NCBI RefSeq assembly: GCF_014279875.1
Contig: NZ_CP047952.1
Coordinates: 1,612,001 to 1,676,000 of the forward strand
Length of the DNA: 64,000 nt
From: Synechococcus sp. MEDNS5
GTDB taxonomy: Bacteria; Cyanobacteriota; Cyanobacteriia; PCC-6307; Cyanobiaceae
Reading direction: 5' to 3'
A program made the translations under genes and the position numbers. Shown one piece after another: positions 30,546-45,440 of the stretch. The notes under the pieces were generated by a model that was not told where the DNA came from, made no database searches, and saw only the letters and a list, made by a program, of their open reading frames with translations. Positions within the stretch are counted from its first letter, which is position 1. Each line of letters starts with the position of its first letter.

Positions 30546-31844
30546 ATGACAACCGCGGCGCCTCCGTCTCAGGACATTCTCAAGCCGCATCTCGCTATCG
30601 ATGGGGGGCACAAGCTTCAGGGAGAGCTAAGGGTCAGCGGAGCCAAGAATTCGGCCCTGGTGCTAATGACAGCCTCCCTGCTCACCTCCGAGCGTCTCAC
30701 GCTTCACAACGTGCCACCCCTCACCGACATCGACGGGATGGAAAGCATCCTCGTGTCCCTTGGAGTGAAGGTTCATCGCCGCTCAGAAACTGTTGAGCTG
30801 GAGGCTTCGAATCTCACCAGCGCTGAACCTCCCTACGAACTGGTGAATGGTCTGCGGGCCAGCTTTTTTGCGATCGGATCCATTCTCGCCAGGATGGGTT
30901 ACGCCAAAGTGCCCCTTCCTGGTGGGTGCCGCATCGGCGCACGGCCGGTGGTTGAGCACATCCGGGGCCTGAAAGCCCTGGGAGCGTCCGTCGCCGTGGA
31001 GCACGGGGTCGTGACAGCGGCAGTCCCGGGGGAGAGCAAGCGACTGAAAGGTGCGTCCATCGTGTTGGACTGCCCGAGCGTGGGCGCCACGGAAACGATC
31101 CTGATGGCCGCAACCGTGGCAGAAGGCACCAGCGTGATTGAAAACGCTGCTCAGGAGCCCGAGGTTCAGGATCTCGCCAACCTTCTCAATGCCATGGGGG
31201 CACGCATCACCGGAGCTGGTGGCCCCACGATCACGATCCAAGGAGTGGAGAGATTGCATGGTTGTGACTACTCCGTGATTCCGGATCGCATCGAAGCTGG
31301 AACCTTTCTGCTCGCAGCGGCGATCACCCGTTCACCCCTGCGGGTTGCACCGGTCATTCCCGAACATCTGAACGCGGTGCTGCAGAAACTGCGCGACTGC
31401 GGCTGCACGCTCGAGATTGACGGGGAAGGCATCACGATCACCCCTGGAGAGATCAAGGGCGTCGACATCACCACTCAGCCATTTCCTGGCTTCCCCACCG
31501 ATCTGCAAGCTCCTTTCATGGCTCTGCTGACTACAGCCAATGGAACCAGCGTGATTACAGAGAAGATCTACGAAAACAGGATGCAACACGTTGCTGAGCT
31601 GCAGAGGATGGGTGCAGCCATCCGCATCCAGGGGAACACGGCTGTTGTTGAGGGTGTTTCAAGCCTGAGTGCTGCCCCAGTGAACGGCACGGATTTGAGG
31701 GCTGCAGCCGCCATGGTTCTTGCCGGCCTCGTGGCCCGTGGGAGCAGTCAGGTGTGTGGTCTTAACCATCTCGACCGGGGCTATGCCGGCATTGAAGCCA
31801 AGCTGCGTGCCTGTGGTGCGGTGCTTGAACGGCATCTCCCCTGA
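30546..31844 (+). CDS. murA: UDP-N-acetylglucosamine 1-carboxyvinyltransferase
   Basis: Transfers enolpyruvate from PEP to UDP-GlcNAc, the first committed step of peptidoglycan synthesis; target of fosfomycin. The 432-residue protein has the inside-out barrel repeats, with KNSALVLMTASLL near the N-terminus and the fosfomycin-sensitive Cys at about residue 128 in LPGGCRIGARPVVEHI. The end shows LNHLDRGYAGIEAKLRACGA. Other cell-wall genes (ddl, ftsQ, ftsZ, dgcN/dgcA) lie within the next 15 kb. Confidence 0.97.
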   Translation: MTTAAPPSQDILKPHLAIDGGHKLQGELRVSGAKNSALVLMTASLLTSERLTLHNVPPLTDIDGMESILVSLGVKVHRRSETVELEASNLTSAEPPYELVNGLRASFFAIGSILARMGYAKVPLPGGCRIGARPVVEHIRGLKALGASVAVEHGVVTAAVPGESKRLKGASIVLDCPSVGATETILMAATVAEGTSVIENAAQEPEVQDLANLLNAMGARITGAGGPTITIQGVERLHGCDYSVIPDRIEAGTFLLAAAITRSPLRVAPVIPEHLNAVLQKLRDCGCTLEIDGEGITITPGEIKGVDITTQPFPGFPTDLQAPFMALLTTANGTSVITEKIYENRMQHVAELQRMGAAIRIQGNTAVVEGVSSLSAAPVNGTDLRAAAAMVLAGLVARGSSQVCGLNHLDRGYAGIEAKLRACGAVLERHLP

Positions 31845-31881: not shown

Positions 31882-31963
31882 GGGAGCGTGCCGGAATTGG
31901 TAGACGGACTCGACTCAAAATCGAGCGCCTTCGGGCATGTGGGTTCAAGTCCCACCGCTCCTA
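31882..31963 (+). tRNA. tRNA-Leu (CAA)
   Basis: A class II tRNA of 82 bases with acceptor GGGAGCG/CGCTCCT, anticodon stem CTCGA/TCGAG with loop CTCAAAA (anticodon CAA), a long variable arm and T-loop TTCAAGT. The CCA end is not encoded. Confidence 0.95.
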
Positions 31964-32044
31964 CTTCACCACCAGCGGATCGCACCGGACACTGAGAGAC
32001 TGATTTTTCAATCTCCCCCTACGAAGTACAGATCGCACAGCGTC

Positions 32045-33265
32045 ATGGTGGAGCCCAAAGCTGATTTGATGTCCTCAGCGGTGATGGGCACCTACAACCG
32101 CTTCCCTCTGTCCCTTGTGAAGGGTCGTGGCTGCTGGGTATGGGACGACCAGAACCGACGGCACCTCGACGCCGTTGCTGGGATCGCCACCTGCACACTC
32201 GGGCACAGCGATCGGGTCCTGCGGCGCGCCCTTTCCCGCCAGCTGAGGACGCTTCAGCACGTTTCCAACCTCTACAAAATTCCTGAACAGGAACAACTGG
32301 CGCAGTGGCTGGTGGCCAACAGCTGCGCTGACAGCGTGTTCTTCTGCAATTCAGGAGCGGAAGCCAACGAAGCAGCGATCAAACTGGCGCGAAAGCACGG
32401 CCACATGCGCCGCGGTATCGAGCGGCCAGTGATCATCACAGCCGCTGCCAGTTTTCATGGCCGGACGTTGGCTGCGGTAAGTGCAACCGGTCAACCGCGT
32501 TACCACCAAGGATTCGAGCCCATGGTGGAAGGATTCGCATTCTTCCCCTACAACGACGGCGACGCCTTCGAGCAGCTGCTGATGCAGCTGGAGCAGAACG
32601 GCCCCAGGGTGGCTGCTGTTCTGATCGAACCGCTTCAGGGCGAAGGCGGTGTGAACCCTGGCGATCCCGCTGTGATGCAGCGCATCCGCAAGCTCTGCAG
32701 CGAGCGCGACATTCTGCTGATCTTTGATGAGGTGCAGGTGGGAATGGGCCGCACGGGCACGCTCTGGGGTTATCAACAACTCGGGGTCACACCGGATGCC
32801 CTCACCCTGGCCAAAGGCCTCGGAGGAGGGCACGTGATCGGTGCCCTGCTGGTGAGTAAGCACGCTGACGTGTTCGAACCCGGTGATCACGCCAGCACCT
32901 TCGGCGGCAATCCCTTCGCCTGCCGTGCGGGTCTCACCGTGGCCAGCGAAATTCTGCGTCGCGATCTGCTGAAGAACGTCCAGGCTCGGGGAGCGCAACT
33001 GCATCAAGGACTGAACCACCTGGTGGAGCGTTATCCCGACCACTTAGCGGGGAGTCGCGGCTGGGGATTGCTACAGGGTCTGGTTCTCCGGGACACCTGC
33101 CAATTTTCAGCCGCCGATGTGGTGAAGGCCGCTCTTGAAGAGCAGCTGCTGCTGGTGCCTGCAGGCGCTGCGGTGGTGCGCATGGTGCCTCCCCTGGTGA
33201 TCGGGCCCAGGGAAATCCAGACCTTGCTCACCCGACTGGATCGCGCTCTCCAGCAGCTGATGTGA
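32045..33265 (+). CDS. argD: Acetylornithine aminotransferase
   Basis: A PLP-dependent class III aminotransferase that makes N-acetylornithine in arginine synthesis. The 406-residue protein carries NSGAEANEAAIKLARK, SFHGRTLAAVSATGQ, the cofactor Asp in LIFDEVQVGMGRTG and the PLP lysine in TLAKGLGGGHVIGA. The ATG at 32045 is preferred, since an earlier in-frame start lies in tRNA-Leu. A second ATG eight codons later is possible. The stop overlaps folC by four bases. Confidence 0.93.
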   Translation: MVEPKADLMSSAVMGTYNRFPLSLVKGRGCWVWDDQNRRHLDAVAGIATCTLGHSDRVLRRALSRQLRTLQHVSNLYKIPEQEQLAQWLVANSCADSVFFCNSGAEANEAAIKLARKHGHMRRGIERPVIITAAASFHGRTLAAVSATGQPRYHQGFEPMVEGFAFFPYNDGDAFEQLLMQLEQNGPRVAAVLIEPLQGEGGVNPGDPAVMQRIRKLCSERDILLIFDEVQVGMGRTGTLWGYQQLGVTPDALTLAKGLGGGHVIGALLVSKHADVFEPGDHASTFGGNPFACRAGLTVASEILRRDLLKNVQARGAQLHQGLNHLVERYPDHLAGSRGWGLLQGLVLRDTCQFSAADVVKAALEEQLLLVPAGAAVVRMVPPLVIGPREIQTLLTRLDRALQQLM

Positions 33266-34510: not shown

Positions 34511-35053
34511 ATGCTGTGCTCGTCGTTCATGCCTCCGCTGCTGAAACTCATCACCGCCATCACCCTGGTGATCGGCGTCCTGTGCGACCCCGTCATGGCG
34601 CTCGACACCTCAGCCGGGGTTGGCCTGCAGGACAGAGCTTTGTTTCAGGAACGGGTGGATTACACCTTGACCAATCAAAACGGCGTTGATTTTCATGATC
34701 AGGTCCTCAGCAACACCTCCTTTGCTGGCGCGGCGGGCAAGGGCGCTGATTTCAGCGGAGCCAATCTGCAAGGGGCGATCTTCACGCAGGGTGCGTTTGC
34801 CGATGCCAACTTCCATGGCGCCGACCTCAGTGATGCCCTGATGGATCGTGCGGATTTCACAGGAACGGATCTGCGGGATGCCGTCTTGATCGGCGTGATC
34901 GCATCCGGAAGCAGCTTTGCCGGGGCTCAGGTAGATGGCGCCGATTTCAGCGATGCCCTGCTGGACCGGGATGACCAGCGAAGGCTCTGCCAAGAGGCCG
35001 AGGGGATCAACCCCACCACCGGTGTGCTGACCCGCGAAAGCCTCAGCTGCTGA
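34511..35053 (+). CDS. Exported pentapeptide-repeat protein
   Basis: A 180-residue protein with an N-terminal signal segment (about residues 8-31, ending VMALDT) followed by A(D/N)LxX pentapeptide repeats from about residue 60 (GADFSGANLQGAIFTQGAFAD, then FHGADLSDALMDRADFTGTD). Such right-handed quadrilateral helices are common in the cyanobacterial thylakoid lumen and periplasm. The C-terminus has two cysteines (LCQEAEGIN and the final SC). Exact function unknown. Its end overlaps the convergent oxidoreductase by 11 bases. Confidence 0.85.
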   Translation: MLCSSFMPPLLKLITAITLVIGVLCDPVMALDTSAGVGLQDRALFQERVDYTLTNQNGVDFHDQVLSNTSFAGAAGKGADFSGANLQGAIFTQGAFADANFHGADLSDALMDRADFTGTDLRDAVLIGVIASGSSFAGAQVDGADFSDALLDRDDQRRLCQEAEGINPTTGVLTRESLSC

Positions 35054-36374
35054 ATCCGCCAAGCTTCCCAGGATTCAGCAGACCCGCTGGATCCAAACGC
35101 TGCTTGGCGGCCACCTGATCGCCATCCACGACGCCAAGCCCTCCGCCCTCAACGGTGAGCACGTGAGGATTAAAGATCAGAGCCCCGAGGTCGCGGCAGT
35201 GCTGCATCAAACGCTCCAGCTCGTCAGCCCCGCGCCAGCGCACGAGCGGCAGAGCCGCAAGCCGCTGAACACCCTGCTGTCGCACGGCTTCCAGATGAAT
35301 AAGCACATCCCCTCCCCAGGTCTGCTTCAGCGCTTGCAGGCAGTCCAATTCAGGTTGCGGAAGCAGCATCTGCAGGTAGGTCCAGTCAGGTTCGCTCTGG
35401 CGCATGTGCAGGGTGGTGTGATTCCAGGTCAGTTCCCGCAGGCCATGGCCGGCATGGTGCATCTCCGCACCGAGATGCACCACGGCCGCACCGCAGTCGG
35501 CCGCCAACCGCTCCACCGTGCTGACCGCATCGGGGGCCGCCAGCAAGAGGACACGGTCCGCCTTTGTGTTCGGGAAGTCCCAGGCCGGCAACTGAGCCAC
35601 CACTTCAGCCTCCAGAACGGTGCAGAGATGGAGGTTCAAAGCCGATCCGCAGCAGTGTCGCGCCAGCTCAACAGCGGATGGCCAATCAACGCAGTCGATC
35701 ACCACTTCCTGCCACTCCACCGTTGGCGCGGTGGCGAGCGTCAATGCGGTGATGATCCCGTTGGTGCCGTAGGCATGATTCAACGCCTCCGCATCGGAGG
35801 CGTCCAACTGGAGCCGCTTTGGCTCCGGCTCCATCGTCACCACCTCAAGACCGAGTAAGTGGCCCGGATCGCGCAGAAAGCCCCAGCGCACCGAACCGAT
35901 GCCACCGGAGCCACCGGCAATGAAGCCACCGATCGTGGCGCTGCGCCAGGTACTGGGCAGCAGGCGCAGCTGACGACCGTGCCCACGCAGGGTCTGATCG
36001 AGATCCTTCAGGATGCAGCCGCATTCCACAGTGACGACACCAGTAGTCGCCTCGATCCTGCGGACGGCACGCAGGCGTCCCATCAGCATCACCACCCCTC
36101 CCTCGAGGGGGACGCTCTGTCCGTAGTTGCCGGTCCCGGCGCCCCTCAGGGTGAGGGCAATGCCATGACGGCAACAGGCCGCAGCCACACCCACCACGGC
36201 ATCCACCGTTTCGGGGCGCACCACCAGCGCCGCCCGGCAGGACGCCAGGCGCTCCTGCAACACCGGTGAGTAGTCGTAGGCATCTCTGGAATAACGATCC
36301 AGATCCTCTGGACGTTCCAGCAGGGTGAGGCCTGGCACCGCCGCCAGTTCCGCACGCAACATCTCAGGAACCAT
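35043..36374 (-). CDS. FAD-binding oxidoreductase (GlcD/LDH type)
   Basis: A 443-residue flavoprotein of the VAO/PCMH-fold family that includes glycolate oxidase subunit GlcD and D-lactate dehydrogenases. Visible are the FAD-binding ALTLRGAGTGNYGQSVP, VTVECGCILKDLD and FIAGGSGGIGSVRWGFL. The C-terminal FAD-oxidase cap ends in RLDPAGLLNPGKLGG. The substrate is not determined. I chose the ATG at 36374; a GTG at 36383 adds three residues. It follows the amidohydrolase on the same strand. Confidence 0.88.
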   Translation of the reverse strand: MVPEMLRAELAAVPGLTLLERPEDLDRYSRDAYDYSPVLQERLASCRAALVVRPETVDAVVGVAAACCRHGIALTLRGAGTGNYGQSVPLEGGVVMLMGRLRAVRRIEATTGVVTVECGCILKDLDQTLRGHGRQLRLLPSTWRSATIGGFIAGGSGGIGSVRWGFLRDPGHLLGLEVVTMEPEPKRLQLDASDAEALNHAYGTNGIITALTLATAPTVEWQEVVIDCVDWPSAVELARHCCGSALNLHLCTVLEAEVVAQLPAWDFPNTKADRVLLLAAPDAVSTVERLAADCGAAVVHLGAEMHHAGHGLRELTWNHTTLHMRQSEPDWTYLQMLLPQPELDCLQALKQTWGGDVLIHLEAVRQQGVQRLAALPLVRWRGADELERLMQHCRDLGALIFNPHVLTVEGGGLGVVDGDQVAAKQRLDPAGLLNPGKLGGFSS

Positions 36375-36401
36375 GAACGTCACGATCAGAGGAACGACCT
36401 T

Positions 36402-37631
36402 TCAATCCTGAACCCAGACGCCACCCGCCAGCACCTTGCGCTGGGGAGGAGCCGAGAGCAGTTCGGGCCAGCCGCCAGTGGGCATATGGATCAGATCCGC
36501 AGGAGCACCGGGGCGCAGAACTCCATCCCAAGCAAGGCCCAGCAAACGGGCGGCGTCCGTGCTGAATGGAGCAATCCCCTCCTGATCCCAGGGAGCCAGT
36601 TGAGCAAGGGGAACACTCATGGCCATCAAGGCCAGAGGGTCCAGGTTCCCGCCTGGAAACCAGGGATCCTGCACATTGTCTCCCCCCACAGCCACACACA
36701 CTCCGCGATCACGCAGCTGGCGGATCGGAGCGAGGGGTCGTTGCACCGGTGTGGTCTGCCCTCGACGCCCAAGCAGCCATCCATTGGTGAGAGGCAGGGC
36801 CACCACCTGCAGCTGATGCTCCGCCATCCGCTCCCCCAGACGCCGAAGCGAGCCTGGATTCAGCAGCGAAAGGCTGCTGGCATGGCTGCAGGTGATTGGC
36901 ACCGACACGTCCATCGTGCTGAGAACCCGCAGCAGTTGCCGAACCCCGGCTGCTGGATGCTCCGACGCCTCATCGATGTGCAGATCAACCGGGCACCCAA
37001 AGCGCTCCGCCAGCGCCAGGAGACGTCGCAGCGCTTGGCGAGGGCCCCTGCCCCGACAAGGAGGTTCGATCACACCACCGATCACCCCCTCGGCCGCTGC
37101 GACCTGAGAGGCCAGCTGCTCTCCCTCCGGGGTGGACCAATGGGCGATGGGCACGAGCGCCACCAGCTGGAGCTCGATGCGCTCCTTCCAGTGCTGACGT
37201 CTCTCCGTCAACACCTCCCAGCTGCAGGCGGCCCCTGGTCCCAGGCTGTCGATGTGCGTGCGAATGGCCCGAAGGCCATGGCCCCAGGCCAGCCCCAGAG
37301 CTCGCTCACTGCGTTCGTGAACCCGATCAGCGGTTCGGGTGCGATGTTCGCGCATGTTGGCCTCCATCGCACCGGCGTAGGTCCCTGAACCATTGGGGTA
37401 ATCGGTCCAGGAGAAGGCTTTATCGAGATGGGCATGGGGCTCGACCAACCGGGGGAGCACCAGTCCCTGCCCGTCAGCAACAGGCAAGACGGACGTGATC
37501 CTGCCGTCCATCCAACGCAGCTCCACCGAGAGCAGGCCATCTGCAGGCTGCTCTGGTGCCACTTCAGGAGACAAGTCAACAAGGCTGACCGGGCAGCGGC
37601 TGCGCAGCGATCCAGCGTCTTGCGGCCTCAT
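36402..37631 (-). CDS. Cytosine deaminase-like amidohydrolase
   Basis: A 409-residue metal-dependent amidohydrolase resembling the cytosine/isoguanine deaminase group. Metal and catalytic residues are visible: HAHLDKAFSW, RTHIDSLGP, CPVDLHIDEASEHPAAGV, ITCSHASSL and AVGGDNVQDPWFPGGN. Without a purine or pyrimidine operon nearby the substrate is open. It overlaps the DUF4359 gene by four bases and is followed by the FAD oxidoreductase, so the three are likely one transcript. Confidence 0.88.
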   Translation of the reverse strand: MRPQDAGSLRSRCPVSLVDLSPEVAPEQPADGLLSVELRWMDGRITSVLPVADGQGLVLPRLVEPHAHLDKAFSWTDYPNGSGTYAGAMEANMREHRTRTADRVHERSERALGLAWGHGLRAIRTHIDSLGPGAACSWEVLTERRQHWKERIELQLVALVPIAHWSTPEGEQLASQVAAAEGVIGGVIEPPCRGRGPRQALRRLLALAERFGCPVDLHIDEASEHPAAGVRQLLRVLSTMDVSVPITCSHASSLSLLNPGSLRRLGERMAEHQLQVVALPLTNGWLLGRRGQTTPVQRPLAPIRQLRDRGVCVAVGGDNVQDPWFPGGNLDPLALMAMSVPLAQLAPWDQEGIAPFSTDAARLLGLAWDGVLRPGAPADLIHMPTGGWPELLSAPPQRKVLAGGVWVQD

Positions 37632-38189: not shown

Positions 38190-39251
38190 TCACGGAGCCA
38201 TCAAGGCCTCGAGCAGGGAATCAGCTCCCTGTCTGATCGGATCCACGCAGGGAAGCGAAAGCCTCTCGCTGAGTTCTGCGCTGAAACGCGCGCACTCCGC
38301 ATCGCTCAGTCCTTCCGTATTCAGGGCCACCGCTCTCACCAGGGGTGGAGGTCCGGCTCCTCGCGGTCGGCCGATGGAAGCCAGACCCTCACAGAGCTGA
38401 ATCAGATCCTCCAGGGGAGGAAGGGCAATGTCTGGCAAACGATGAATGCAGCTCTGATGGGCGCGATGCACCATCAGCAGGGCTGTTGGCTGGGAGCCAC
38501 GCAGTAACGGAAGGGTGGCCGTCGAACCGGGATGACAGAGCGATCCCTGCCCTTCCACCAGCAGCAAAGCATCGTCCCCTGCTGCGGACGCTGCGCTGAG
38601 GACCGCCGCCTCCACCGCACCAGCGGCGTAGTCAACCCGTACGGCATCGAGGGGAACCCCCTGGCCACTGATCAGAATTCCCGCCTGTCCTGTTCCCACG
38701 AAGGCCACGGACACAGCGAGACGCTGCGCCGCTTCCTGCACCGCCAGGCAGGCACTCATCTTGCCGACAGCCATATCGGTTCCGACAGCCAGAACGCGCT
38801 TGCAGGGCAGAGCGGCAGCCCTGGCCTGGCCAACCCTGAGTCCCTTGGGCTCGCAGCGGAGATCCCAGATCCAGCGTCCAGGCTGAACCGCCGCGCTCAG
38901 CTCCGGATCATCGGCCAGATAGGTGTGCAAGCCGCTGGCCACCGAAAGCCCCGCCTTCAGAGCAGACAACACATCCGACCTCAGAGCTGCTGGCAGCACA
39001 CCACCGGAGGGCGCCAGACCCACCACGGCGACAGACGGCCTGAAGGCAAGGGCCTCAGCCAGATCCCTCACCACCGGAACAGGCCTGGGAATCCCGGTCA
39101 CAGTCTCCAATCGCTGGCCGGCATGGTCTGGATCAATCACCGCCACGATCGGTCCGCGCCGATGCCGCAACATCGCCAAACCGGTCTTGCCGGTGAGGCT
39201 GTCGAGGCCTCCGTGCTGGAGAAGCACCACAGGATCTTGGTCAGCAAGCAT
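38190..39251 (-). CDS. DUF1611 protein, probable D-glutamate N-acetyltransferase DgcN
   Basis: A 353-residue DUF1611 protein. The N-terminal half is Rossmann-like (VVGLAPSGG) and the C-terminal half has a P-loop (VGTDMAVGKMSACLAVQ). Members of this family paired with an enolase-superfamily racemase have been characterised as DgcN, which acetylates D-glutamate. Here the pair is present: the start ATG shares a base with the stop of the epimerase gene. The assignment rests on that pairing. Gene order, dgcA first, implies one transcript. The substrate, possibly D-Glu from wall turnover, is inferred. Confidence 0.75.
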   Translation of the reverse strand: MLADQDPVVLLQHGGLDSLTGKTGLAMLRHRRGPIVAVIDPDHAGQRLETVTGIPRPVPVVRDLAEALAFRPSVAVVGLAPSGGVLPAALRSDVLSALKAGLSVASGLHTYLADDPELSAAVQPGRWIWDLRCEPKGLRVGQARAAALPCKRVLAVGTDMAVGKMSACLAVQEAAQRLAVSVAFVGTGQAGILISGQGVPLDAVRVDYAAGAVEAAVLSAASAAGDDALLLVEGQGSLCHPGSTATLPLLRGSQPTALLMVHRAHQSCIHRLPDIALPPLEDLIQLCEGLASIGRPRGAGPPPLVRAVALNTEGLSDAECARFSAELSERLSLPCVDPIRQGADSLLEALMAP

Positions 39252-40333
39252 CAGGAGGCCTCCACCGGCGTAACGCCCAAGCCGCTTCCCTGCGGTGGCA
39301 GCAGTTGATCCCCTTTGAGCGGCAAACCCTCGTAAGGATCGTCCACCAGATTGAGGTGGCTGTCCAAGTCAGGCCAACGGATGCAGGCAAGCAACTGCGC
39401 CGCAGCAGCATTCATCAAGGTGCTGTCCGAGTAGCAGCCCACCATCAGATCCAGATCAAGCCGCTCAGCCACCTGGGCCATCAGCCAGGCCTCCGAAAGA
39501 CCACCGGTCTTGAGAAGCTTGAGATTCACACCGTCCACATGGGGCGCCAACCGAAGCAGATCCTTCAGATCCCAACAGCTCTCGTCAGCAACCAAGGGCA
39601 GATTGCAAGCAGGGCGTAGCGCTGCAAATCCCTCCAGATCCTCGTCCGGATCAAGACGAGCGGGCAGCGGTTGCTCGAGCAACACCACCCCAGCTTGATC
39701 CAGATCCACCTGCATCGCCTTGGCCTGCTCAAGAGTCCAGCCTCCGTTGGCATCCACCTGAAGTTCGTGCGCCACCGCCATCCGCTGGGAGCGCTCCTGA
39801 AGGGCGATGGCCACCGCCTGCAATAGGGCGCGGTCATGCTCCAGTCCTTCGGGACTGCCGAGTTTGAGCTTGATGCGGGTTGCCGGCATCTGACTCCACC
39901 AGCGCTCAAGACGCTCCAGGACCTTTTCAACAGAGGCGAGACCAAGGGTGACGCTCGTGGCCACCCCCCTGGTTCCATCCAGCGCAAACAGCCTCCAGAT
40001 CGGTTGCCCAAGCTGCTGTCCCCACCAGTCCCATAGGGCCAGATCCACAGCACAGCGCGCCGGTGGAGACAGGGGGGCCAGCCAAGGTGCCAGGCCATGA
40101 TGGTCCTGAGGATTCAAGGACTCCAAGGTCGGCAACAGGGCCTGGAGTTCAGCCTCGATGCCCTGCAGCGCGTAGGCGCGATGGCCCGTATCGAGACCAC
40201 CTGTTTCCCCTAACCCCACAGTCCCGCCATGGTCGAGGCGAAGTTCCAAACGTTCCACAACGGACGTGGTTCCTCTGCTGATCGCCAGTGGCACCGCCTT
40301 GGTGAGGGGAAATCGACGCAGACTCCAGCCCAT
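39251..40333 (-). CDS. Enolase-superfamily epimerase, probable N-acetyl-D-Glu racemase or dipeptide epimerase
   Basis: A 360-residue muconate-lactonising-type enzyme. The catalytic KxK lysines ([11 protein letters not shown]), metal ligands ([27 protein letters not shown]) and the second-side lysine ([10 protein letters not shown]) are all present, so it should be active. Such proteins are usually annotated L-Ala-D/L-Glu epimerase, but the coupled DUF1611 gene makes DgcA, the N-acetyl-D-glutamate racemase, equally likely. The ATG at 40333 matches family length; longer starts would cross the miaB upstream region. Confidence 0.82.
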
Positions 40334-41863: not shown

Positions 41864-42925
41864 ATGCCGACTTCCCTTCTCCGCGTTGGCGTGGTGTTCG
41901 GAGGAGCCTCCGGCGAGCATGCCGTGTCGATCCGATCAGCCCTCACGGTGATCAAGGCGTTGAGGGCCCCGGAGAATCTCGAGCGGTTCGAGGTGATCCC
42001 GCTGTACATCGATCGCGATGGTCGCTGGTGGGACCCGACCGTTGCCCAGCGTGCGCTTGATCAGACCAGGGCCCTCGACGCCAACGACCTACCCCAGCCT
42101 CTGCCTGCTCCTGGGCTTCGTCACTGGCCGGTCGATCCCGACACGGTGGATCTTTGGTATCCAGTTCTCCATGGTCCCAACGGTGAAGATGGGACGGTGC
42201 AGGGTCTGTTCACGCTGATGAACAAACCCTTCGTGGGCTCCGGGGTACTCGGATCAGCTGTGGGAATGGACAAGCTGGCAATGAAAGCCGCCTTTGCCGC
42301 CGCTGGACTGCCCCAGGTTCCCTATGTGGGCCTAAATGCGGCCGACCTCGAGAAACCAGAGCGACTGGAGCAGCTGTTAACCCGGCTGGAGCAGGAGCTG
42401 GGTTACCCCTGTTTTGTCAAACCCGCCAACCTGGGCTCATCGGTGGGCATCACCAAAGCGTGCAACAGGGATGAGCTTTTGGCTGGATTGCACCAGGCGG
42501 CCGCACTCGACCCAAGGCTGCTCGTCGAACAGGGCATCAAAGCCAGGGAACTGGAATGTGCCGTGCTGGGGCGGCGTCATCTGCGGGCCTCCGTAGTGGG
42601 AGAGATCCGCTTTGACGCCGATTGGTATGACTACGAAACCAAGTACACCGAGGGGCGCAGTCACACGCTGATTCCCGCTCCACTTCCAGCATCGGTGAGC
42701 CAGCAGATTCAGGCCATGGCGATTCGGGCTTGCCATGCCGTGCATGCCTTCGGCCAGGCCCGCGTGGACGTCTTCTACGAGGAAACATCCGGCCAGATCT
42801 GGCTCAATGAAATCAATACCCTGCCTGGCTTTACCTCCCAGAGCATGTATCCCACGCTCTGGGAAGCCACAGGTATCCCATTGCCGCAATTGGTGGCAGA
42901 GCTGGTCGATACAGCGCAAGAATGA
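41864..42925 (+). CDS. ddl: D-alanine-D-alanine ligase
   Basis: Joins two D-alanines for peptidoglycan precursors. The 353-residue ATP-grasp enzyme shows [58 protein letters not shown] and the metal-binding [13 protein letters not shown]. Upstream of ftsQ and ftsZ, as in many bacteria, separated from ftsQ by one small membrane-protein gene. Confidence 0.97.
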
Positions 42926-42953: not shown

Positions 42954-43361
42954 ATGCACGGACTGCTCTGGCTTCCACTGCTGCTGGTGTTCGTGTTGCT
43001 GGCCGCTTTGGGTTGGCTCGAACGTCGAAGGCAGTCCCTGTTCAGACAGTGGAGTCAGTCGTCGGAGCTCGCCAAACTGGATGGCTGTGGAGCAGCCCGG
43101 CTCAAGGAGGGTGAACTCTGTTGGAGCAGTTTTCACGCCGGAAGTTTCCGAGAAGAGGGTCGCTTTGTGATCAAAACCCTGGAGCTGGTTGAGCTGATGT
43201 CTCTTGCTTCGGGAGACACACCGCTCTCGGAGGAATCCCAGGGTCAGTGCCGCCTTCGACTGATCGGCGAAGGGCTTCAGATGGACGTTCCTTTCTCCGA
43301 TGCGGAACGGGCCCGTCGCTGGATGGAGCAACTGATGGCCAAGGCCCGCTGTGACCTCTGA
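42954..43361 (+). CDS. Hypothetical membrane-anchored protein (135 aa)
   Basis: A 135-residue protein with one N-terminal span (MHGLLWLPLLLVFVLLAALG) followed by a basic cytosolic start (WLERRRQ) and a soluble domain. No named domain is recognised. Its position between ddl and ftsQ, with its stop overlapping the ftsQ ATG by one base, suggests a link to wall synthesis or division, but that is inference from position only. The first ATG at 42951 adds one methionine. Confidence 0.75.
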   Translation: MHGLLWLPLLLVFVLLAALGWLERRRQSLFRQWSQSSELAKLDGCGAARLKEGELCWSSFHAGSFREEGRFVIKTLELVELMSLASGDTPLSEESQGQCRLRLIGEGLQMDVPFSDAERARRWMEQLMAKARCDL

Positions 43362-44212
43362 TGCCCCGCAGTCAGAGCCAATCCGTCAAGCGTCGGGCTT
43401 CGAAGTCTTCGGGTCCGCTGCCTCCAAGCGTTGAACGTCGCAGGCAGCTAAGGCGAGAGCGACGGCGCGACCAGTTGATTCAGGCCTGGCGGATCATGGT
43501 CTTCACCGGATCGTCCGCCGCGCTGGCCTGGATCATTCTCAGTGCAGGCTGGACGCTGCGCTCCATTGACCAGCTCCAAGTCGTCGGTAGTGATCGCCTC
43601 GGCCCAGACAACGTCGCCAAAGCAGGACGGCTGCAGTTCCCACTTCCGCTTCTGTCGTTGAAACCGAACACGCTCGAACGTCGCCTGATGGCGGAACTTC
43701 CTGTGCAGTCGGTGACCGTGCAACGCCGGTTATTGCCACCAGGCCTGGAGGTAGAACTAAAAGACCGACGCCCGATCGCCGCAGCAACACGCAGTGGAGC
43801 TGGGGGAACGGAGCAGGGCATGGTGGATCGCGAAGGGCACTGGATGCCCCTGACCGTGGCGCGTCAGGGCGAGGCACCGGCGAGTGCTGTTCGTGTGCAG
43901 GGCTGGATTCCAAGCCGACGCTCAACCATCGCCAAGCTGCTCGAACAAAGAGATCGGCTGGGCAGCCCCTTGCAGGTGATCCATGTGGCTCCCGATGGAG
44001 ACCTCAGCCTGCGCACGGCCTCACTCGGTCTCGTCAAACTCGGCTCCAACGGAGCCTTGCTGGACCAGCAACTCAATACCGTGGTTCAGTTGACACACAG
44101 CCTTCCGGCCCAGCTGCGAGGTCAGAGCGACACCAGCATTGATCTATCAGACCCGAGCAAGCCCGAATTGCAATTGCCGGCAAAAGCTGCAAAGAAAGCG
44201 AGCGAATCCTGA
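43361..44212 (+). CDS. ftsQ: Cell division protein FtsQ
   Basis: A bitopic divisome protein that links early and late division proteins. The 283-residue protein has a basic N-terminus, one membrane span (about residues 41-60), a POTRA domain (TLRSIDQLQVVGSDRLGPDNVAKA, with RRLLPPGLEVELKDRRPIA) and the FtsQ C-terminal domain. Sequence conservation is low, as is normal for FtsQ. ftsZ follows after 73 bases. Confidence 0.88.
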   Translation: MPRSQSQSVKRRASKSSGPLPPSVERRRQLRRERRRDQLIQAWRIMVFTGSSAALAWIILSAGWTLRSIDQLQVVGSDRLGPDNVAKAGRLQFPLPLLSLKPNTLERRLMAELPVQSVTVQRRLLPPGLEVELKDRRPIAAATRSGAGGTEQGMVDREGHWMPLTVARQGEAPASAVRVQGWIPSRRSTIAKLLEQRDRLGSPLQVIHVAPDGDLSLRTASLGLVKLGSNGALLDQQLNTVVQLTHSLPAQLRGQSDTSIDLSDPSKPELQLPAKAAKKASES

Positions 44213-44285
44213 CCACTGGTTGCGTTCTCTGTGAAGGAAACCGAGTGTGTCTCGATTATCGGCAATCGTCACTCGCAGGGACATA

Positions 44286-45440
44286 ATGCAAACGCAGCTC
44301 AACGGGTCAGCGGTAACCATGGAGATGGTGAACGGTCAGATGTCGTCGTCTCCTGCAGTCGAAGGGATTCTTCCCAGTCAGTCAGCGCGGATTGAGGTGA
44401 TCGGCGTTGGCGGTGGTGGCAGCAATGCCGTTAATCGCATGATCATGAGCGAACTCGAAGGAGTCGCTTATCGGGTCCTCAATACGGATGCCCAAGCCCT
44501 CATTCAGTCATCGGCCGAACACCGGGTCCAACTCGGTCAAACCCTCACCAGGGGTCTTGGCGCTGGTGGCAATCCCAACATCGGCCAGAAAGCGGCTGAA
44601 GAATCCCGCGCTGATCTTCAGCAAGCCATCCAGGGTGCTGACCTGGTGTTCATTGCTGCCGGCATGGGAGGCGGAACCGGCACCGGCGCTGCACCCGTTG
44701 TTGCCGAAGTCGCCAAGGAAAGTGGCGCTCTCACCGTTGGCATCGTCACTAAACCCTTTGGATTCGAAGGTCGCCGGCGGATGCGTCAGGCCGATGAAGG
44801 GATCGCTCGCCTGGCGGAACACGTGGACACCCTGATTGTGATCCCCAATGACAGGCTCAGGGATGCCATCGCAGGTGCTCCTCTTCAGGAAGCATTCCGC
44901 AGTGCCGACGATGTGTTGCGGATGGGTGTGAAGGGAATCAGCGACATCATTACCTGCCCAGGCCTTGTGAACGTGGATTTTGCCGACGTGCGTTCGGTGA
45001 TGACAGAAGCCGGTACGGCTCTTCTTGGCATCGGCGTTGGATCAGGACGCTCCCGGGCCATCGAAGCAGCCCAGACCGCAATCAACAGCCCACTGCTTGA
45101 GGCGGCTCGAATCGATGGCGCCAAGGGATGCGTGATCAACATCAGCGGCGGTCGTGACATGACCCTCGAAGACATGACCAGCGCTTCCGAAGTGATTTAC
45201 GACGTGGTGGATCCCGAAGCCAACATCATTGTGGGAGCTGTGGTGGATGAGGCTCTCGAAGGGGAAATTCATGTGACGGTGATTGCCACCGGCTTCGAGA
45301 ACGGTCAGCCCTATCGCAGTGAGCGCAGCATTCCCAAAGCCGCCCCCTCGGCATACGTAGCCCCTGAGAGTTCAGATTCCGGAGCCAGAATCCCCGAGTT
45401 TTTGCGTCAACGTCAATCCCGTCAGGATCAAGCGAACTGA
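44286..45440 (+). CDS. ftsZ: Cell division protein FtsZ
   Basis: The tubulin-like GTPase of the division ring. The 384-residue protein has the N-terminal [17 protein letters not shown], the tubulin signature [13 protein letters not shown], the T7 loop [11 protein letters not shown] and the conserved C-terminal tail peptide [10 protein letters not shown], which binds ring anchors such as ZipN. The ATG at 44286 has AGGGA upstream; a GTG at 44247 is an alternative that adds 13 residues. Confidence 0.98.

Follow-up and report, generated by a model that had tools for sequence, protein, structure and literature searches.

The locus considered here raises the question of what an enolase-superfamily epimerase and a protein of the DUF1611 family, encoded by two overlapping genes of Synechococcus sp. 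MEDNS5, do together. Both genes lie in the window, which is the whole stretch of 64,000 nucleotides that was analysed and to which the coordinates below refer. An earlier note had filed the pair with DgcN and DgcA, the two enzymes of a D-glutamate pathway reported by Yu et al. (2023, ISME J 17:537), as described in the accessible parts of PMC12363236 and PMC10845958. No paper on a DUF1611-epimerase pair in cyanobacteria was found among the matches listed in the open-licence literature. We consider it somewhat more likely than not that the two enzymes together invert D-glutamate, as a module working like DgcN/DgcA. The observed basis of this proposal comprises the gene pair itself, its co-inheritance, the catalytic residues, and the core and fold of DUF1611.

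Gene pair and genomic neighborhood

The pair, its motifs and the neighboring genes are located in the window as follows.

39251..40333, (-) strand: enolase-superfamily epimerase, putative N-acyl-D/L-Glu epimerase, 360 aa from ATG 40333 (PF13378, 102.6 bits)
38190..39251, (-) strand: DUF1611 protein, putative D-Glu N-acyltransferase (or ligase), 353 aa (PF07755, 226.7 bits; PF17396, 99.6 bits)
39249..39253, (-) strand: TGATG overlap of the epimerase stop and the DUF1611 start, read from the sequence
39428..39439, (-) strand: GCYS motif, epimerase residues 299-302, from the alignment of references and phototroph loci
39362..39370, (-) strand: DxD motif (D322, D324) of the epimerase, common to dipeptide epimerases and DgcA
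38754..38783, (-) strand: P-loop GTDMAVGKMS, DUF1611 residues 157-166, with G157, D159, G163 and K164 invariant in 36/36 rows
38544..38555, (-) strand: EGQG motif, DUF1611 residues 233-236, with E233, G234 and Q235 invariant in 36/36 rows
30546-31844: murA (548 bits, cut-off 392.7)
31937-33265: argD (452 bits, cut-off 410)
35043-36383, (-) strand: FAD-binding protein
36402-37631, (-) strand: cytosine-deaminase-like amidohydrolase (260.9 bits, cut-off 403)
41864-42925: ddl, near the pair
43361-44212: FtsQ-type POTRA protein, near the pair
44247-45440: FtsZ, near the pair

The epimerase gene is upstream and the DUF1611 gene downstream, and a single base (39251) is common to the stop of the former and the start of the latter, which confirms the one-base overlap described earlier. 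The epimerase start is ambiguous and may be either ATG 40333 (360 aa) or GTG 40456 (401 aa). Both proteins exceed the Pfam cut-offs for their two domains, with 226.7 bits (cut-off 25) and 99.6 bits (22.6) for the C- and N-terminal domains of DUF1611, and 102.6 bits (29.4) and 29.1 bits (22) for MR_MLE_C and MR_MLE_N of the epimerase. The 2.44-Mb MEDNS5 genome, assembled as one contig, encodes one DUF1611 protein and one epimerase of this type; a close named relative in the search, with 88% identity, is Synechococcus WH7803.

The proximity of the cell wall genes murA, ddl, ftsQ and ftsZ had been noted before, and all four were located, together with argD, which is absent from the earlier note. 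Their nearness to the pair was nevertheless rejected as functional evidence. The gene order argD-folC-pentapeptide-FAD-amidohydrolase-DUF4359-DUF1611-epimerase-miaB-ddl-ftsQ is conserved in 13/13 loci of the MEDNS5 family (a relic included; DUF1611 was found by BLAST in 12), whereas miaB, ddl and ftsQ are near the pair in only 1/15 other phototroph loci and argD in 0/15. In family f38, presumed from its phylogenetic position to be Vampirovibrionia and so named here, ddl and ftsQ lie close to the pair in 0/5 loci. Of the wall and arginine genes, this comparison across loci covered ddl, ftsQ and argD. Thus, the wall and arginine genes nearby represent family-level synteny, an inherited scenery that is kept in the own family of MEDNS5 and rarely outside it. 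By eye, miaB was also seen to adjoin the pair in two genomes of another genus. The FAD-binding protein and the amidohydrolase are encoded beside the pair throughout the MEDNS5 family.

Co-inheritance across the cyanobacterial phylum

Among 292 genomes of the cyanobacterial phylum, 81 encode both genes, two encode DUF1611 only, none the epimerase only, and 209 neither (Fisher p 9e-71, to be read with caution because the genomes are related). The DUF1611 set was derived from a PF07755 search, in which 91 genomes had a match and eight weak ones were dropped, and the epimerase set from a profile of 26 epimerases, which matched 100 genomes, 81 of them at more than 400 bits. The 81 two-gene genomes correspond to 20 family codes, as read from the table, and are not 81 independent events. 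Both DUF1611-only exceptions fit co-inheritance: the sole DUF1611 of genome G211 belongs to the PLP-type class described below, and the relevant ORF of genome G266, located beside miaB and the amidohydrolase, fuses the first part of the epimerase with the last part of DUF1611 and is a relic of both genes. This fused ORF occupies L043:6637-7551, where both genes decayed by one deletion.

The two genes are separated by at most 700 bases in 70 of the 81 genomes and by at most 3 kb in five, and are unlinked in the remaining six. At the level of loci, the epimerase is beside DUF1611 on the same strand in 80/80 cases (80 kept of 169 found); an adjacency of this extent is far beyond chance. The order of the pair is reversed in 5/5 Vampirovibrionia loci. 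In five of the six unlinked genomes the genes are on different contigs, each at least 11 kb inside its contig, so their separation is not an assembly break; since both genes are kept though unlinked in 6/81 genomes, the tie between them is not mere hitch-hiking. When the neighbors of the unlinked genes were inspected by eye, no repeated partner was seen except for one threonine-dehydratase-like ORF, recognized by eye as a neighbor of the epimerase in two genomes from a single family. The gene pair is thus old and functionally tied.

The co-inheritance bears on an alternative that we regard as unlikely, namely an ordinary L-Ala-D/L-Glu dipeptide epimerase of muropeptide recycling next to a DUF1611 protein that carries out a separate recycling step. 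A muropeptide Ala-Glu epimerase should need no DUF1611, hence a pathway requiring both proteins is the economical reading of 0/81 epimerase genomes without DUF1611. A control search with PF07755 gave a match in 4/14 named genomes and none in E. coli, B. subtilis or Bacteroides; according to the accessible part of PMC5808125, the first two species have characterized Ala-Glu epimerases encoded next to peptidase genes. In addition, visual inspection of the unlinked genomes revealed no wall-recycling gene adjacent to the epimerase or to DUF1611. Points on the side of the dipeptide epimerase are a haloarchaeal locus with the order NlpC/P60 - DUF1611 - epimerase and the presence in the MEDNS5 genome of one NlpC/P60 protein and two S66 LdcA-type matches. 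On the whole, co-inheritance counts against a muropeptide epimerase acting alone and favors a DgcN/DgcA-like route in two steps.

Catalytic residues, folds and phylogeny of the two proteins

The MEDNS5 epimerase retains all catalytic residues of Glu epimerases: K155, K157, D194, N196, E220, D250 and K272, positioned via alignment to YkfB, are conserved in 26/26 rows, as is the DxD motif. R20 is also invariant and, although the alignment to YkfB is one residue off there, probably corresponds to the YkfB arginine that binds the side chain of Glu. The catalytic residues and DxD match those of characterized dipeptide epimerases, and the best PDB match, 3jva, is a dipeptide epimerase, both of which favor the muropeptide alternative; however, the DgcA references have DxD as well, so this motif does not discriminate and was rejected as proof of dipeptide specificity. 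The protein also stays below the equivalog cut-offs for dipeptide epimerases (NF011708, 99.1 vs. 343 bits; NF041118, 83.4 vs. 500 bits). Its best NCBIfam model is that of DgcA (NF042940), yet the score of 169 bits is below the cut-off of 400, with annotated DgcA proteins at 402, 508 and 423. This ranking was likewise rejected as evidence, since a Deinococcus dipeptide epimerase, whose gene adjoins NlpC/P60 with no DUF1611 in 9 kb around, scores higher against the same model (238 bits).

One segment sets the phototroph enzymes apart. The motif G-x-M, present in 12/12 references (three DgcA, YcjG, YkfB, 4gfi, 3iji, 3s5s, 3jva and three further loci), is replaced by GCYS in 124/124 phototroph loci with the region present, some of which may come from one genome present in two collections (apparently the case for L036 and L139), whereas GCMI is kept in 5/5 Vampirovibrionia epimerases. 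These counts were made on 135 loci, six of them incomplete or relic, after two loci from the window itself, a further two that were duplicates, and six references had been left out. In YkfB the G-x-M segment is presumably near the N-terminal residue of the dipeptide. The replacement suggests that the substrate may differ and that an acyl group other than acetyl may be involved.

The phototroph enzymes group together in the epimerase tree, in which DgcA falls among the YcjG-type enzymes and the haloarchaeal DUF1611 partner lies with 3s5s/YkfB. AU tests rejected a single clade of all DUF1611-partner epimerases (p 6.6e-5) and a clade of cyanobacterial epimerases with DgcA (p-AU 3.2e-5), and did not reject the cyanobacterial enzymes with the whole YcjG/DgcA group (p 0.148); the epimerase and DUF1611 trees contain long branches and some incomplete PDB sequences, a weakness that the AU tests share. 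As judged from these results, epimerases probably acquired DUF1611 as a partner on more than one occasion.

The DUF1611 proteins have 18 columns invariant over 36 rows, four DgcN included. Of 41 columns with good conservation, six place the cyanobacterial group with DgcN and apart from the PLP-partnered proteins, and two place it with the latter and apart from DgcN, counts that rest on few rows (four DgcN and eight PLP-type). Cyanobacterial, Vampirovibrionia, DgcN and PLP-partnered proteins form separate, well supported groups in the DUF1611 tree. The AlphaFold model of the MEDNS5 protein (pLDDT 90.8) has 2obn, 2g0t and 7xrj (DgcN) as its nearest folds, and superimposes on 7xrj with Z 35.2 and rmsd 3.5 over 323 residues. 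DUF1611 genes are also carried by jumbo phages of Erwinia and Dickeya (34 phage records); in Dickeya phage AD1 (L165:4857-5912) the gene is followed by a putative asparagine synthase.

The C-terminal domain of DUF1611 has, in the predicted model, a dethiobiotin-synthetase-like P-loop fold. Outside its own family it fits first to dethiobiotin synthetase 3mle (Z 13.7, rmsd 3.4 over 175 residues) and cobyrinate synthase 5if9 (Z 13.3, rmsd 3.6 over 183), which head many P-loop proteins with tied Z. This fit speaks for a second alternative, in which DUF1611 would be of the dethiobiotin synthetase/CobB type and would use ATP, as a ligase or in the manner of a carboxylase, to join a small polar group to D-Glu, the epimerase inverting the product. 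The GTDxxVGK and EGxG motifs of DUF1611, which we take to resemble those of BioD/CobB, point the same way, as does the epimerase GCYS, more polar than the GCM of DgcA. DgcN, however, is named an acetyltransferase in its PDB title and in NCBIfam and has the same fold, which consequently cannot separate ATP from acetyl-CoA use, and the tie with many other P-loop proteins further weakens the argument; we consider this alternative distinctly unlikely. The DgcN paper reportedly compared DgcN to GNAT enzymes.

Proposed route and comparison with known systems

In the D-glutamate inversion module that we favor, DUF1611 would put an acyl group on the amino group of D-Glu, for which acetyl-CoA is the donor with precedent. 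The epimerase would then take up N-acyl-D-Glu and invert its alpha carbon through Mg-assisted proton abstraction by two bases, K157 (in the K155-x-K157 pair) and, on the opposite side, K272, yielding N-acyl-L-Glu to be deacylated or handed to another pathway. Acylation would thereby allow an enzyme built for X-Glu dipeptides to accept glutamate. It is D-Glu as the substrate, the acylation step and the D-to-L direction that we infer here. Counter-evidence to this module comes from the sub-cut-off scores, the rejected DgcA clade, GCYS, and 3jva as the best PDB match.

The host genome encodes the glutamate racemase MurI (191 bits, cut-off 147), ArgJ, ArgD and two M20 proteins, making both D-Glu turnover and N-acetylglutamate metabolism possible in MEDNS5. 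ArgJ and ArgD are expected in any case, and nothing connects the pair to either process; a wall origin of the D-Glu and a passage of the product into arginine synthesis, as proposed in the earlier note, are conjectural. MurI could in principle racemize D-Glu directly, which counts against the module. A module running in reverse, which would back up MurI by converting N-acetyl-L-Glu to D-Glu (or to N-acyl-D-Glu), would be compatible with the reversibility of enolase-superfamily epimerases and with ArgJ and ArgD, owing to which N-acetyl-L-Glu is presumably available; it is highly improbable given that MurI is present and that the pair is missing from most genomes of the phylum (192/292 have no match to the epimerase profile at E <= 1e-20). 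One of the M20 proteins (L171:1477-2766) scores 432 against the model for N-carbamyl-L-glutamate amidohydrolase ErtE (cut-off 520) and, speculatively, might be an outlet for an N-carbamoyl-Glu product.

If the D-to-L module is true, D-Glu inversion by N-acylation extends from marine Proteobacteria and haloarchaea to phototrophs, and a pair present in 81/292 sampled genomes, along with the 2obn structure without function, gains a testable role. The pattern of DUF1611 with racemases of two folds offers a route to assigning a domain of unknown function.

In the accessible part of PMC12363236, which discusses dgcN, the string 'cyanobacteri' has 0 mentions; the accessible part of PMC3605383 places Ala-Glu epimerase genes in cyanobacteria, with 0 mentions of DUF1611. 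Synpcc7942_2373, called an L-Ala-D/L-Glu epimerase, carries two different mutations, W98* and G27R, in two laboratory strains of S. elongatus (PMC13273366, Table 2). Its identity with the epimerase gene of the pair was not confirmed by the orthologs in L173 and L174 (the latter by eye), two genomes of one genus that we guess to be near S. elongatus, in which residues 27 and 98 do not fit the W98/G27 numbering.

DUF1611 is also found next to a racemase of an unrelated fold. It adjoins a PLP alanine/ornithine-racemase-family gene, annotated as such in three plasmid records, on proteobacterial plasmids of Phaeobacter, Vibrio europaeus and Ruegeria (L160, L161, L167), and a second DUF1611 copy accompanies a PLP-type ORF in several cyanobacteria (L041, L050, L053, L055, L057), where the one partner scanned is Ala_racemase_N and the others were recognized by eye. 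The PLP-partnered DUF1611 proteins form their own clade (100/99) and have Q, not D, at position 207 of the MEDNS5 protein. A PLP racemase requires a free alpha-amino group; therefore, DUF1611 cannot act there on the same nitrogen beforehand and might act afterwards or on the side chain. A broader proposal, to which we attach low confidence, is that DUF1611 is a general partner of amino-acid racemases, joined separately to more than one enolase-superfamily lineage (cyanobacterial, YcjG/DgcA-like, and YkfB/3s5s-like haloarchaeal) and to a PLP racemase. The cyanobacterial pair would then handle a polar N-substituted D-Glu that differs from N-acetyl-D-Glu and is produced by DUF1611 as a P-loop enzyme, perhaps with ATP, in a D-amino-acid pathway distinct from DgcN/DgcA.

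Among known proteins, Ava_3511 of Anabaena variabilis (2obn), deposited without an assigned function, lies inside the cyanobacterial DUF1611 clade with 48% identity to the MEDNS5 protein and no notable difference at this level. The epimerase shares with YcjG (1jpd) and YkfB (1jpm/1tkk) the K-x-K motif, the D/E/D metal site, the second Lys and DxD; it differs in having Y for the M of G-x-M and a DUF1611 partner, whereas the control search gave no DUF1611 match in E. coli or B. subtilis.

With DgcN-DgcA, the pair shares the coupling of DUF1611 to an enolase-superfamily epimerase, the common invariant core and fold, and the catalytic residues. It differs in gene order, with the epimerase first and DUF1611 second in MEDNS5 and dgcN first in the reference loci L156-L158; in the position of the cyanobacterial epimerase, which is not sister to DgcA and has GCYS vs. 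G-x-M; and in that both proteins fall below the equivalog cut-offs, DUF1611 reaching 221.9 bits against the DgcN model (NF041892, cut-off 480; annotated DgcN at 493, 551 and 523). The original filing under DgcN/DgcA therefore holds for the pair, its overlap, its strict co-inheritance, the common DUF1611 core and the catalytic residues, and fails for membership proper (221.9 vs. 480; 169 vs. 400). We lean slightly toward a pair that works like DgcN/DgcA and is not a member of DgcN or DgcA. The DgcN/DgcA-type pathway is already known, and the cyanobacterial pair is probably a variant thereof.
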